From the IMG/VR virus record IMGVR_UViG_3300036782_000063, positions 1-25,723 of that record: a stretch of DNA of 25,723 nt; one strand, written 5' to 3'. Position 1 is the first letter of the stretch. Each line of letters opens with the position of its first letter. Shown piece by piece: positions 2,364 through 12,916 of the stretch. Source of the stretch: a virus. The translations under genes were made by a program, and so were the position numbers. The notes under the pieces were generated by a model. It did no database searches and was not told the DNA's origin. It was given only the letters and a program-made list of their open reading frames with translations.

Positions 2364-3542
2364 TTATTTCATAATAATGTAGTTTAAAGTGGAAGCACCT
2401 GGATCACCTGAACTTAATACTGTGAATGAACCATTTCCAGGTGTAACTTTTTGTATATTTACTGCATTAGCACTTGTATTCCATTGAGCTAGAATATTAC
2501 TAGCCGATGATGAAAATGCATCAGTAACTGTAGTCGTTGCAGAGCCACCGGCATTCACAGCTCCTGCTACTGATTTCATTCTAACCGCTGAGGTTGAAAC
2601 TACGATATCACCAGTGGAAGCACCAATATCAGGTATTGTATACACAGTGGACTGACCCATTACACCACTTGAAATAGTGGTATTGAATGCACCACCTGCA
2701 TTTACTGCGGCAAGTATTAGAGAGCCATTGGCAGCAGTAGGAGGAAATGAAGTTACTGTGCCTGGATGGCCAGAGCTACCAGCAGTTAGATTTCCTTGTA
2801 GAGCTTGGAGATTTCCTAATGCTAGCGACAAACTTCCAGTTGCAATACTTTGAGTTCCTGCTGAATCTGCCAATATGAATTTTGAAGTGGCAACACCTGG
2901 ATCGGGAATGCTAATAACAGATGACTGACCCATTACTGAATTATTGATAGTGGTATTAAAAGCGCCACCAGCATTAATAGCAGCTAAGATTAAAGAACCA
3001 TTAGCAGCGGTTGGAGGAAATGATATAAAACTTCCTGCTGTCCCACTTGTACCGGCTGAGATATTGCCAAGATTATTGACGTTTGCTGCTCCTCCATCAA
3101 TAGTCCCTGCGGTATCACTAAAATGAGCTAATCTATTAACAACTTCAGCACCTGATGCCATAACTACTTTAGTCTTTGTAGGATCAGATGGTGAATAACC
3201 AGCATCATAGAGTTGGCCTAAAGTGCCAGAGAAATTCACGAAATCATTATTAGTTACAGGAAGGGTCACGCCACCAGCACCCGCTGTTGAATAAAGAATT
3301 AAGCTATGGGTGGTCATATTTACTTGATATAAAACATCATCATTATCTGCTTGTGAATATAGCAATACTAAATCACCTGGTTGCCATACCCATACACCAC
3401 TGTTGGCAAGCTCAATACTAGCGATTGTTGATGCAAGTCCAAGCCATCCCGTTGCAGCAACGGTCGCTTGAGAATCCGTGACGCTCATATTTACTATTTG
3501 AGGAACGTCATTAAAATTACGTTGGATAGAGATTACTGACAT
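2364..3542 (-). CDS. Fibre-like phage surface protein with two internal repeats
   Basis: The 392-aa protein starts after an AAGGAGAT site and is rich in Gly, Ala, Ser, Thr and Asn. Residues ~159-216 and ~249-307 are two copies of one module, each with SFPPTAANGSLILAA, NAGGAFNTTI and an IPD motif. A C-terminal region (about 328-392) with VNAGGSATTTVTDAF and ending NYIIMK is probably a trimerising or receptor-binding tip. The N-terminal ~110 residues contain GVWVWQPGDLVLLYSQ, possibly the virion attachment domain. This composition matches phage tail or head fibres. It is on the strand opposite the fibre at 3-1574, so the phage may carry two adhesins expressed from separate promoters. Confidence 0.7.
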   Translation of the reverse strand: MSVISIQRNFNDVPQIVNMSVTDSQATVAATGWLGLASTIASIELANSGVWVWQPGDLVLLYSQADNDDVLYQVNMTTHSLILYSTAGAGGVTLPVTNNDFVNFSGTLGQLYDAGYSPSDPTKTKVVMASGAEVVNRLAHFSDTAGTIDGGAANVNNLGNISAGTSGTAGSFISFPPTAANGSLILAAINAGGAFNTTINNSVMGQSSVISIPDPGVATSKFILADSAGTQSIATGSLSLALGNLQALQGNLTAGSSGHPGTVTSFPPTAANGSLILAAVNAGGAFNTTISSGVMGQSTVYTIPDIGASTGDIVVSTSAVRMKSVAGAVNAGGSATTTVTDAFSSSASNILAQWNTSANAVNIQKVTPGNGSFTVLSSGDPGASTLNYIIMK

Positions 3543-4697: not shown

Positions 4698-5572
4698 GCG
4701 GCTTTATCTCCTTTAGTTTTAACTTCCATTTTGGGTTTTGATTTATTTTCCATATGTATAATGAGCTTCGTAATAACTATTTCATTCATTTCTTCAAAAC
4801 TTGTAGCCTCAGCTTTAGTTAACCATTTTTGTACTATCTCATCTGGTTCTTTGTAAAGCTCAATTAATTCCTTTAAGCGAGCTACTTGTTGCGTTGTAGC
4901 TAACTTCTCTGCTATTGCATCTTTCTCTAGTATTTTTTTACCATAACGTTTTGAGATTTCTTCGTAATCAAATGGAAAAGTTTCTCCATCCGGGAATGAT
5001 TCAAGTCTAGATTTTTTAATAATCCCAACTCGAGATGCTCCACGCTTTTGAATCTCAAATACTAAATCAAAAAGATAATCTAACTTTTTATATCCGTCAA
5101 AAGTTTGACCAAGTACAGACAAATTATCACCATACAAATTTTTAGAATGGCATGTGATAATGACATTCATGTCTAAGCGTAATAATAAATTTAATAAATG
5201 TTTAACTTTTTTATTAGCTTCTCCATAATGTCTACCAAATTCTGATCCTACATCTTTTTCTGCTTTATCTAATAAGTCATTATAAAGTGTAGTAAATGGA
5301 TCAATGATTAAAGTTTTAAATTCATGCTTTTCTGTTAATAAAGATTTTACTTCGATAAGCAATTCATCAAAATCATTAGTTTGATAAACTACTCCTCCTA
5401 ATTTTTTTATAATCTCTACATATTGATCATTGGTTGCGCCTTTTTCTGTATCGATTAGATATGGTTTTGGAAATTTAATTGATGCTGTAGTCTTACCAAC
5501 ACCTGGTGCTCCATAAAATAATGCTTTTAATCTTTTTTCAATCTTCTCTGGTGATATTCCACGTAACTTCAT
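4694..5572 (-). CDS. Sak4-like RecA-fold ATPase (AAA_24), recombination/annealing
   Basis: I chose ATG at 5570-5572 (292 aa) because AGGAGG lies 8 nt upstream and the preceding gene stops at 5574; a longer in-frame start at 5590 lacks that site. Residues 21-28 are a Walker A motif, GAPGVGKT. TLIIDPFT, with D91, is Walker B. NVIITCHSKN at ~136-145 is a typical beta-strand with a polar end as in RecA-fold ATPases. The C-terminal third is helical and charged. Sak4-type proteins are phage single-strand annealing or RecA-like recombinases of similar size. It is followed with overlap by an SSB-like gene, as expected for this module. Confidence 0.75.
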   Translation of the reverse strand: MKLRGISPEKIEKRLKALFYGAPGVGKTTASIKFPKPYLIDTEKGATNDQYVEIIKKLGGVVYQTNDFDELLIEVKSLLTEKHEFKTLIIDPFTTLYNDLLDKAEKDVGSEFGRHYGEANKKVKHLLNLLLRLDMNVIITCHSKNLYGDNLSVLGQTFDGYKKLDYLFDLVFEIQKRGASRVGIIKKSRLESFPDGETFPFDYEEISKRYGKKILEKDAIAEKLATTQQVARLKELIELYKEPDEIVQKWLTKAEATSFEEMNEIVITKLIIHMENKSKPKMEVKTKGDKAA

Positions 5573-6123: not shown

Positions 6124-6303
6124 TTATTCTGTCAATACATTTTCTTGTGATTTCTTTAATTTTCTTACTGCGCGCAAAATAACTTCATTAAAGCTTATAT
6201 CTTGCTCATATGCTATTTTATTGGCATATTTCCAAGTTTCTTCATCTAAGCGAATAGTGGTTTTTTTTACAACTGGCGTTACTTTCCAATCTGTTTTTTT
6301 CAT
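6124..6303 (-). CDS. Ribbon-helix-helix transcriptional regulator
   Basis: The 59-aa reading from ATG 6301-6303 is preferred because AGGA lies 8 nt upstream; an in-frame ATG at 6312 lacks a site. KKTTIRLDEETWKYANKIA is a beta-strand plus helix of the Arc/MetJ/CopG type, and ISFNEVILRAVRKLKK is the second helix. Such proteins dimerise and place paired beta-strands in the major groove. It is the first gene of the minus-strand block and faces the divergent control region with an inverted repeat over its own promoter, so autorepression or an early switch role is likely. Confidence 0.75.
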   Translation of the reverse strand: MKKTDWKVTPVVKKTTIRLDEETWKYANKIAYEQDISFNEVILRAVRKLKKSQENVLTE

Positions 6304-6339
6304 TATACTCATCCTAATGGTTGGTAATATATTGCCATC

Positions 6340-9727: not shown

Positions 9728-11213
9728 TTTTTTAGAATTTTGTCCTAATTTTCTTAAGATTAAATTAAAGTCTGGAAAAACAATTCCTTTCCAATTAAAT
9801 AGAGCTCAACTCTTTTCTCATCAGAGATTAGAAAATCAATTAAATGAAATGGGAAGAGTAAGAGCCATTGTATTAAAAGGTAGGCAAGTAGGATTTAGTA
9901 CTCTTATCCAAGCACGTTATTTTCATAAAATTGTAACTCGAAAAGGTCAAAAAGCTTTTATTCTTTCTCATGAAACTGAAGCTACTAAAAATATATTTGA
10001 TATGACAAAAAGATTTTATGAAAACTTACCAAAGGGATGGTGCCCTCCTGCGGATAAATCATCTAGTAAAGAACTTAAGTTTAATTCTTTAGAATCTGAA
10101 TATGCAGTTGGTACAGCTAGAAATAAAGGAGTAGGACGTGGTCAAACGGTACAATTATTTCATGGAAGTGAAGTAGCTTTTTGGCCAGCCGCTGAAGATC
10201 ATGGTAGAGGAATTTTGCAAGCAGTTGCAGATGAAGATAATACAGAAATTATTTTAGAAAGCACAGCTAATGGAATGGGAAATTATTTTCATAGTATGTG
10301 GTTAGCAGCTATGTCCGGAAGCAGTGAATATCAAGCTATATTTTTACCTTGGTATTGGATGTTAGGTTATAAAAATTATGATTCTGGTTTCAAGCCCGAT
10401 GAAGAAGAAAGATTGTTATTAGATTGTTATGAAGATGATGGATTAAGTGAAGAACATTTAGCATGGCGCCGTGTAAAAATAGCAACTCTATCCAAAGACA
10501 TTGGCGCTGGAATAGAGCTCTTCAAGTCTGAATATCCTATGAATGCAGAAGAGGCTTTCCGTAATGCCATAGATAATGTATTTATATCATCTCAATATGT
10601 ATTAAAGGCGAGAATGAATGATGTTGATAGCGAAGCTAATCTTATTATCGGTGTTGACCCTGCTATCGCTAATTCTGATCGAACTGCAATTATCCGTAGG
10701 AAAGGGAGATTGGCGTACAATCTTGATGCTTTTAGAAATTCGAACACTATGGAAACGGTAGGTAAGGTACGACATATAATCGAGACTGAGCGTCCTACTA
10801 AAGTATTTATTGATTGCATAGGTATAGGTGCAGGTATAGTTGATCGCTTACGTGAGATGGGATTTAATCAAGTAGTTGGTGTGAACGTAGCACGTTCTGC
10901 CAACTTAAAGGACAAGTTTCGTAACCTTCGAGCAGAGTTATGGTCAGATATGCGAGAGTGGCTAGCTCAAGAACTGCCTGTACAAATACCAGACTCAGAC
11001 GAACTTCATGGTGAGTTATGTTCATTGGGGTATAAGTATAATTCCAATGGTCAATTAGTTATAGAGTCTAAGGATGATCTACGAGCTAGAGGCATGCCTA
11101 GTCCTGATCTAGCAGATGCTCTTGCATTAACATTTTATAATGGTCAGTATGCGAATGAGAATGCATTTACGCCTAACATAATACCGCAACAGCATAGAGG
11201 AATGTTTTATTGA
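9705..11213 (+). CDS. terL: Terminase large subunit (packaging ATPase/nuclease)
   Basis: 502 aa, normal for the family. An atypical Walker A, LKGRQVGFST, is at ~57-66. Walker B with the catalytic Glu is EIILESTANG at ~181-190. The RNase H-like nuclease has IIGVDPAIANSD (D318), VFIDCIGIGAG (D370) and SPDLADALALTF (D468/D471). It powers DNA translocation into the prohead and cuts concatemers. The small subunit precedes it with overlap, and its stop overlaps the ATG of the next gene (TGATG). The portal gene is not next; 3.6 kb of accessory genes and arrays lie between. Confidence 0.93.
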   Translation: MTNPLLNDFLEFCPNFLKIKLKSGKTIPFQLNRAQLFSHQRLENQLNEMGRVRAIVLKGRQVGFSTLIQARYFHKIVTRKGQKAFILSHETEATKNIFDMTKRFYENLPKGWCPPADKSSSKELKFNSLESEYAVGTARNKGVGRGQTVQLFHGSEVAFWPAAEDHGRGILQAVADEDNTEIILESTANGMGNYFHSMWLAAMSGSSEYQAIFLPWYWMLGYKNYDSGFKPDEEERLLLDCYEDDGLSEEHLAWRRVKIATLSKDIGAGIELFKSEYPMNAEEAFRNAIDNVFISSQYVLKARMNDVDSEANLIIGVDPAIANSDRTAIIRRKGRLAYNLDAFRNSNTMETVGKVRHIIETERPTKVFIDCIGIGAGIVDRLREMGFNQVVGVNVARSANLKDKFRNLRAELWSDMREWLAQELPVQIPDSDELHGELCSLGYKYNSNGQLVIESKDDLRARGMPSPDLADALALTFYNGQYANENAFTPNIIPQQHRGMFY

Positions 11214-11467
11214 TGAGACCGGATCATTCGATTAGAAATATTGATATCTTTATTGATTTCTTATTGGGAAATACATTGGGCGTAATAGGTACTATCCACA
11301 ATTTAAGCAGAGAAAGGGTAAGGCAAATCATAGCAAAATCTATAATAAGATTATTGAAAATAAATTATGACCAATTAAAATCTCCTAGAAAAGTATATAG
11401 AACAGAAGATAATATGAAATTAGCATTAGAATGGAAACAATTTTTATTAAATGAAGGTTGTAAATAA
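11213..11467 (+). CDS. Sigma-70 region-4-like HTH protein
   Basis: The ATG overlaps the terminase stop by one base (TGATG), giving 84 aa. Residues ~18-48 read LLGNTLGVIGTIHNLSRERV then RQIIAKSIIRLL, a close match to the helix-turn-helix of sigma-factor region 4, where the R-E-R-V-R-Q-I segment is characteristic. It lacks regions 2 and 3, so it cannot be a full sigma factor. It may bind promoter DNA or RNA polymerase as a phage transcription regulator. It is directly before the GT-NNN array, which makes it a candidate regulator of that locus. Confidence 0.65.
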   Translation: MRPDHSIRNIDIFIDFLLGNTLGVIGTIHNLSRERVRQIIAKSIIRLLKINYDQLKSPRKVYRTEDNMKLALEWKQFLLNEGCK

Positions 11468-11488
11468 AATGATGTTTTATTAGTTACT

Positions 11489-12039
11489 GTCTGGTGATGT
11501 GTAGTTGTGTGCTGATGCGTACTGTAAAGTCGTGTTATCCAATGATTTGCAATGTAAGGATTTTAACTTAATGGTGTGTCGTGTAGTAAAGTAAAATGTT
11601 GTGGCGTAATCTCGGGAATCGTAATGTAAGGATTTTTAATGAAGCAATGTATTGGAATGTAATGTTTTGTTCTCAAAAGTTAGGTAAGGATTTTTTATTT
11701 ATTCTGCATTGTCGCGTTGGGTCTTGTCTTCATTTGTAATGTGAAGTAATGATTTGTACCGTAAGGATTTTTAATCATCTTTTGTATGGTGAGGAGAGGT
11801 ATTGTGATGCCCTGTTGTGTTTTGTACGGTAAGGTTTTTAAATGATGTGTTGTATAGAGATGTTGGGTTGTGTAGGGTGCTCTAAAGTAAGCTAAGGTAA
11901 ATATTATAAATGACGTTCTGTTGTGTTAAGGAATGTCCTGTTTTGTAAACTAATCTAAGGTAATGATTTTTCATTTTGTTAAGCTACGTAAAGTCTTGTC
12001 GTGTGAGGTATAGTCCAGCTAACTAATCTAAGGTAAGGA
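11489..12039 (+). repeat. Upstream GT-NNN pentamer array, eight units
   Basis: Eight units of GT-N3 pentamers in strict 5-nt phase: 11489-11560 (15 slots), 11576-11632 (12), 11644-11690 (10), 11706-11767 (13), 11779-11835 (12), 11847-11898 (11), 11915-11966 (11), 11978-12039 (13). Of 97 slots, 65 are exactly GT; the rest are mostly GA, CT, GC or GG, and only three (CC, CA, CA) lack both G-first and T-second. Units usually end GTAAGGA followed by an A/T-rich linker of 11-16 nt (consensus GTAAGGATTTTTAAT). Phase is kept within a unit and reset between units. The triplets are varied and AT-leaning. No credible protein gene fits here. Confidence 0.9.
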
Positions 12040-12045
12040 ATATTC

Positions 12046-12627
12046 ATGAAATTACATGTTGAGATATCGGGAGTTACATCGTTGTTGATGAATCGTTTTA
12101 ATATTGATGAACAGCAAGTAAAGGTTAAAGAGAAGAATTTAACACCCAGAGAGTCTGCAAAAAAAGTATGTTATGAAGATGAAGAAGGTAAACTTTATTA
12201 TCCTACTATGAATATATTTGCTTGTATTATTGAGGCTGGTAAATTTCATAAAGACGGTAAAATCAAAATCACCACTGCAAGATCGTCTATTATTCCAGCA
12301 GGATTAATAATTGAAGGTGAGACAGTATATTTCAAAGATACTAGTAATAAAGAGAGTGGAGAGATTGAGAAACAAACGTGGGAGGTTGACTCTCGTGCTG
12401 TTGTTGTGCCTTCTACGGGGGGTCGTATTGTATGTCATCGTCCTAGGCTTGATAATTGGTGTCTCAGTTTTACATTAATATTGGACACAAAGATGTTTAG
12501 TCCTAAATTAGTTAGGACTATTGTTGATGATGCTGGTTGTAAGGTAGGGCTTGGAGATTTTAGACCTGCTCGTAAAGGAATATTTGGTAGATTTGTAGTA
12601 ACAAATTGGCAGGAAGAGAATTCATAA
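12046..12627 (+). CDS. RAMP/Cas7-like phage protein inside the array
   Basis: 193 aa. It starts with a beta-strand, MKLHVEISGVTSLLMNRF. YYPTMNIFACIIEAGKF at ~51-67 resembles the Pro-x-x-x-hydrophobic-Gly/Ala helix of RAMP folds. RPRLDNWCLSFTL at ~132-144 precedes a strand. GLGDFRPARKGIFGRF at ~168-183 is a glycine-rich loop as in RAMP proteins. I recall related single-domain proteins as common uncharacterised phage proteins. By analogy it could polymerise along nucleic acid. It is flanked by eight array units upstream and four downstream, and the end of unit 8 (GTAAGGA) is its ribosome-binding site, which links gene and array. No nuclease motif is visible. The fold assignment is inference by motif; a structure prediction would decide. 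Confidence 0.5.
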   Translation: MKLHVEISGVTSLLMNRFNIDEQQVKVKEKNLTPRESAKKVCYEDEEGKLYYPTMNIFACIIEAGKFHKDGKIKITTARSSIIPAGLIIEGETVYFKDTSNKESGEIEKQTWEVDSRAVVVPSTGGRIVCHRPRLDNWCLSFTLILDTKMFSPKLVRTIVDDAGCKVGLGDFRPARKGIFGRFVVTNWQEENS

Positions 12628-12636
12628 TCGTATATT

Positions 12637-12893
12637 GTCGTGTCCTGTATAGTAGAGTGTTGCCATCTGGTGTCGTGTCTTCTACTCTAAAGTAAGGATT
12701 TTTAATTTTGTGTGGCTCTGTCTTGTAGTGTCTAGTGTTGCATTGCTTTGGAAGGTTATCTAAGGATTTTAATTAATGCGTACGGTAATGTAGAGTTCTG
12801 TTTTGTAAGGTAATGTTTTTAATATTGAGGCGTCATGTCGTGTTTTGTCGAGTCTGCTTGTATCCTGTTTTGTATTGCTTGGAAATCTAAGGT
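12637..12893 (+). repeat. Downstream GT-NNN pentamer array, four units
   Basis: The pattern resumes 9 nt after the stop of the RAMP-like gene: units 12637-12698 (13 slots), 12710-12766 (12), 12780-12816 (8, all exactly GT) and 12827-12893 (14). Of 47 slots, 30 are GT and every other one keeps G first or T second. Unit ends are (G/C)TAAGGA, GTAATGT or CTAAGGT followed by A/T linkers of 10-13 nt. The last unit runs into the ribosome-binding site of the gene at 12917. Confidence 0.9.
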
Positions 12894-12916
12894 TTTTATA
12901 TAAAGGAGAAAGGAGA

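Follow-up and report, generated by a model that had tools for sequence, protein, structure and literature searches.

A phage locus with phased TGY/NN repeat arrays around a RAMP-family gene is very probably a variant of the VIPR system

Organization of the locus

The window, which is the whole stretch of 25,723 nucleotides of viral DNA analysed here (IMG/VR record IMGVR_UViG_3300036782_000063), carries a plus-strand gene at 12046-12627 encoding a RAMP-family protein of 193 amino acids (phrog_4652, unknown function). This gene, designated vipr, is flanked on the same strand by arrays of pentamers, which were parsed in phase into 12 units, with eight units upstream of the gene at 11489-12045 and four downstream at 12637-12896. 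The upstream group begins with unit 1 (11489-11563), which contains approximately 13 repeats and the tail GTAAGGATTT. In the same in-phase parse, it is followed by unit 2 (11576-11635, approximately 10 repeats), unit 3 (11644-11693, approximately 8), unit 4 (11706-11770, approximately 11), unit 5 (11784-11838, approximately 9), unit 6 (11847-11901, 7-9) and unit 7 (11915-11969, approximately 9), each ending in a tail. Unit 8 (11978-12042) has 10-11 repeats at 11978-12032 and a tail that also contains AAGGA, a ribosome-binding-like site of the vipr gene. The downstream group, parsed in phase and likewise tailed, consists of unit 9 (12637-12701, 10-11 repeats), unit 10 (12710-12769, approximately 10), the short unit 11 (12780-12819, approximately 6) and unit 12 (12827-12896, approximately 12). 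The number of repeats per unit ranged from 6 to 13 and varied with the chosen tail start.

The unit ends were mostly recurrent, consisting of GYAAGGR followed by TTTTTAAT, or were GTAAGGATTTTTAAT-like, and the linkers between units were A/T-rich (AAGGATTTTT). This architecture agrees with the twelve units separated by A/T linkers that an earlier note, made from the sequence of this DNA, had counted. No significant structure was predicted for the units and tails of the window, unlike GG-type loci such as L040, where hairpin separators were found (z -3.0). Open frames running through the array regions did not exceed 49 codons, and an Rfam search of the window array region returned nothing relevant. 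Comparison of the upstream array with the phage collection by DNA similarity gave no match, which we attribute to the fact that hypervariable guides are expected to differ.

A small ORF with a weak match to sigma-70 region 4 (E 1.8e-4) lies just upstream of the array at 11210-11467. A gene annotated as "sigma factor" is likewise located upstream of the array in phage LESphi2, and the small ORF of the window was not conserved across the clade of loci with GT-type arrays.

The five-nucleotide register

The occurrence of GT pairs at a lag of five nucleotides was compared with 1000 dinucleotide shuffles. We observed 41 such pairs in 11460-12045, against a shuffled mean of 10.6 (sd 2.8, maximum 19), and 21 pairs in 12628-12905, against a mean of 5.6 (sd 2.1, maximum 14). 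The GT excess was seen again at lags 10 and 15 in the array regions. The signal was confined to these two plus-strand intervals and was found neither in the rest of the window, nor on the minus strand, nor within the gene at 12046-12627. The 5-nt GT register proposed in the earlier note was therefore borne out by the shuffle check suggested there for both strands, with an excess above every shuffle and on the plus strand only. The note had drawn the array as one span (11489-12893); its flanks are indeed periodic, but the gene enclosed in that span is not. The longest runs of exact GT comprised 6-8 slots, and shuffled sequences reached up to 7; because the shuffles nearly match the longest run, significance resides in the total count and in conservation rather than in single runs.

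The composition of the repeat was examined in 872 slots from 12 loci. The two bases following the GY pair were hypervariable, with an entropy of 1.88 bits per base, while the fifth base of the repeat was T in 61% of slots, and C replaced T in approximately 14% of the GY slots. Since the NN pair is hypervariable and the fifth base is mostly T, we read the repeat as TGY-NN, that is, the published GGY-NN repeat with an altered first base. The earlier description of three diverse bases between slots holds for two of them but not for the biased third.

The vipr gene product

A Pfam search with the product of 12046-12627 returned no match. Searching with a profile built from 37 family members gave a match to 36pp_D, the Vipr protein of phage SUSP1 (PDB 36pp), with an E value of 1.8e-53, and the window protein alone, as a single sequence, matched it with an E value of 2.2e-6. 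An AlphaFold2 model of the window protein had a mean pLDDT of 83, and its best solved structural matches were Csm3/Cas7 subunits (Foldseek E 3.9e-6). Structural alignment of the model with Csm3/Cas7 using VIA-align revealed a Z-score of 11.9 and an rmsd of 4.2 over 165-167 residues. We identify the product of 12046-12627 as a Vipr protein, which is a small RAMP of one domain with kinship to Cas7/Csm3. The best structural matches listed for the window protein were all RAMPs, with neither TRAP nor RecT-type families among them. The earlier note had taken this product for an oligomeric nucleic-acid binder with approximately 5 nt per subunit; the kind of protein was correctly anticipated, but the likeness to TRAP or annealing proteins gave way to RAMP homology and fold.

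VIPR (Viral Interference Programmable Repeat), a system of a RAMP protein and vrRNAs, was described in a 2026 preprint and has been known since April 2026 (PMC13142463), so the earlier statement that no described system has this layout does not stand. According to the text of the preprint, vrRNAs from SUSP1 and P. fulva carry a 3' tail and contain 9-16 repeats of YNNGG, in which GGY is invariant and NN hypervariable, and the consensus is given as GGY/NN "or a related consensus (fig. S17)" (PMC13142463). The same text describes DNA targets that are read as xNN, with one base skipped at wobble positions, and an effect by transcriptional repression, and it locates natural targets within competing phages and satellites; an accessory vap gene is typical and not required (PMC13142463). 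The preprint reports VIPR to be the first RNA-guided system whose code is noncontiguous and proposes that the CRISPR RAMPs are rooted in it (PMC13142463). Our window contains a single-domain RAMP homologue, a TGY/NN register that fits a related consensus, and arrays adjoining vipr in a phage. The strict GGY triplet is absent from the window clade, in which most slots begin with T. A reading of the locus as a CRISPR-like system new to science was dropped after the match to PDB 36pp had led to VIPR (PMC13142463).

Relatives of the locus

Among viral contigs with 71-80% identity to the window protein, all nine close relatives had the gene flanked on either side, and on its own strand, by GT arrays, with array sequences that differed among them and a phase that was kept. 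All 46 remote viral relatives had a GG period-5 array near the gene, with periods 4, 6 and 7 falling short. The check on relatives called for in the earlier note was consequently passed in both groups. GG period-5 arrays also lie beside the gene in the Felix O1-like phage wV8, in Mycobacterium phage LittleE and in the Gordonia phages UmaThurman, Ecliptus and MakoManhole. The 46 remote loci are relatives of a homologue in Pseudomonas phage LESphi2, which shares approximately 25% identity with the window protein and has an array reading GGYNN beside it; LESphi2-type homologues are approximately 30% identical to the window protein. Every homologue inspected, down to approximately 25% identity, had a period-5 array beside the gene.

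A low-complexity or slippage-derived microsatellite would account for the short repeat period of the units. However, the bases between the anchors are diverse, and Tandem Repeats Finder reports next to nothing for the array region. We regard this explanation as already refuted, with a negligible residual probability, because the phase is conserved without sequence conservation; the earlier note had likewise discounted slippage, and phase retention across relatives with differing arrays supports that judgement.

In the protein tree, the 12 TGY loci formed one clade with support of 90/95. Its sister, L021, has approximately 51% identity and carries G as the first base in 23 of 33 slots. Open frames within 2.5 kb were compared across the clade; the homologues common to the neighbourhoods were mainly terminase and portal genes, and no conserved accessory gene was found beside vipr. 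As nothing is conserved directly beside the gene, no conserved vap gene was found within this distance; a non-conserved or more distant accessory gene could exist. No GT-clade Vipr was found in bacterial genomes, and the host was therefore not found by this route.

Another explanation is that the arrays form a DNA element for replication, packaging or recombination, with an annealing or packaging protein recognizing its 5-bp register on the duplex. Annealing proteins can bind approximately 5 nt per monomer, and the locus is situated between the terminase and portal genes in several close relatives. In remote relatives, however, the array-gene pairs are located elsewhere in the genome, as in the immunity/integrase region of LESphi2, and the arrays always accompany the gene. 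The protein, moreover, has a RAMP fold and is a Vipr homologue. We consider a DNA element highly improbable.

Several observations were made in individual loci. The wV8 record annotates parts of its arrays merely as direct repeat DR_4, and these repeats (L078:3759-3816 and 5152-5209) lie within the VIPR array regions flanking the vipr homologue gp95. The separators between GG-type units of MakoManhole (L080:1640-1780 and 2880-3240) and LittleE (L079:5140-5520) resemble a tRNA T-arm (GGTTCGAGTCC, GGGGTTCGACTCCCC); ARAGORN and Rfam called no tRNA in them, and the MakoManhole separator can fold as an acceptor/T-arm minihelix with a z-score of -1.6, which is not significant. Processing of these separators by RNase P is possible. 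The GT-type array region of L018 (3263-6584) is very long, with more than 20 units broken up by other sequence, and contains a tRNA gene at 6266-6337.

In L007 (IMGVR_UViG_3300028806_000002), guides at 1903-2096 and 2992-3212 are near duplicates within one locus, which suggests that a unit was duplicated and its repeats subsequently changed. A single CRISPR repeat, GTCGCGCTCTTCACGAGCGCGTGGATTGAAAC, is copied exactly at 2757-2788 of the same locus, in the position expected for a vrRNA unit tail. We take this repeat to be type I-C-like. In two gammaproteobacterial MAGs, the same 32 bases occur as genuine arrays of 17 and 31 copies; the CRISPR spacers of these two genomes had no match to the analysed phages, and the genomes had no vipr match. 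The L007 copy may represent an anti-CRISPR RNA of the solitary-repeat kind, a hybrid of VIPR and CRISPR, or a chimera created during assembly.

Guide composition and predicted targets

The NN pairs of TGY guides (96 units) best fitted codon positions 1-2 of phage genes in the sense orientation. This fit exceeded those of the five other phase models by 37-78 nats, and the bootstrap intervals for these margins lay above zero. The same result was obtained with 98 units of the GG type, which served as a control since wobble skipping is published for them. A mutational bias of the arrays could contribute to this composition.

Viral contigs were scanned with 16-base cores of window units 4, 8, 9 and 12 and of one L007 guide, using the rule of a 1-nt skip. 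The unit 8 core was present in eight contigs, and in two of these, which come from related phages, the match extended to 22 of 22 read bases. Both full matches are on the minus strand (G016:36997-37028 and G017:1773-1804) and correspond in frame to the codons of YYNLRDMPYN(K) near the start of a 67-residue ORF, with all skipped bases at wobble positions. Within the target, G016 and G017 differ at skipped bases only (CTC/CTG and CCT/CCC). Because they are homologous, the two hits count once. Counting the four extension bases outside the tail, approximately 0.03 (8/256) to 0.07 such 20-base matches are expected by chance for this guide, an estimate that precedes the coding-frame condition, which is a further factor of approximately 3. 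The target phages are P22-like, with portal and coat proteins 23-26% identical to those of the window phage. The spaced match is suggestive of, rather than proof of, a target in a rival P22-like phage.

A full-length target was found for one of the four window guides scanned; units 4, 9 and 12 and the L007 guide had none in the viral contigs, and the 8-repeat core of unit 9 had no match there at all. The other window guides had no matches in the target phages of unit 8. Against GT-clade phages, guides at skips of 0-3 showed no excess over shuffled guides, no guide matched other phages of its own clade, and the excess at skip 3 among these phages reflected arrays matching one another. A guide made up of the whole triplet that follows GT was also considered and rejected, as its third base agreed with the skipped base in no more than one of ten slots at the unit 8 target.

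These results bear on the alternative of an autoregulatory role for the arrays as binding sites within the vipr mRNA, with the protein coating its own transcript in the manner of TRAP and making no use of guides. Such a role would suit arrays that flank the gene on its own strand and a last upstream unit that reaches into the ribosome-binding region of the gene. A pure binding site, however, needs neither bases between anchors that are hypervariable between phages nor a codon position 1-2 composition, and unit 8 has a perfect spaced target. Related vrRNAs are, in addition, reported in the preprint text as working guides (PMC13142463). We judge autoregulation alone to be very improbable.

Proposed function

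With the period, the protein family and fold, the arrays beside the inspected homologues, the TGY/NN register, the codon composition of the guides and one candidate target in hand, we consider it very probable that the locus is a phage-borne VIPR of a TGY/NN type whose vrRNA guides repress genes of competing phages. RNA processing, RNP assembly, DNA binding and repression would be expected of the window locus by analogy with the published homologues. In this model, the 12 array units would be transcribed as vrRNAs, and Vipr subunits would line each vrRNA, one per 5 nt, gripping the fixed TGY and exposing the two variable bases. The variable pairs would then read double-stranded DNA as xNN, skipping one base for every two read, with the skipped base normally at a codon wobble position, and binding would repress the targeted genes. 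The phage thus probably uses the locus to silence genes of its rivals.

More tentatively, and at somewhat below an even chance, the clade may constitute an uncatalogued VIPR type in which the anchor changed from GGY to TGY and which dispenses with an accessory protein and a structured tail. It would be situated in the terminase-portal interval of P22-like phages, be aimed at genes of rival P22-like phages and be perhaps the smallest natural RNA-guided DNA-silencing locus. The change from GGY to TGY in the clade, together with its G-first sister L021, provides a natural experiment on scaffold bases versus guide bases, and the window offers a minimal locus with a concrete predicted phage-versus-phage target.

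Comparison with known systems

TRAP and Redbeta/RecT have in common with the window protein an oligomer that advances along nucleic acid with a regular step, but no homology or fold match to them was found, and they have no spacer code. The class 1 CRISPR effectors (Cas7/Csm3 with crRNA) share the RAMP fold, with a Z-score of 11.9 to Csm3, and the arrangement of subunits along a guide RNA. Whereas CRISPR has a 6-nt register with five of six bases read, the window has a 5-nt register with two of five read, and it lacks CRISPR repeats, cas genes and a second RAMP domain; neither CRISPR-type direct repeats in the array region nor further cas-like genes among the examined neighbours were found.

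The closest comparison is with the type II VIPR of Escherichia phage SUSP1 and a Pseudomonas fulva prophage. Unlike these, the window has TGY in place of GGY, 6-13 repeats per unit and a very short, A/T-rich tail without predicted structure, and its clade has no conserved accessory gene beside vipr and often lies between terminase and portal genes. By the main-text description of the published GGY system, the TGY loci appear to be a variant of their own. Common to both are a homologous Vipr RAMP protein, 5-nt repeats in tandem that join an invariant triplet to two hypervariable bases, the presence of multiple units next to the gene, a recurrent unit 3' end and the codon position 1-2 signature of the guides.
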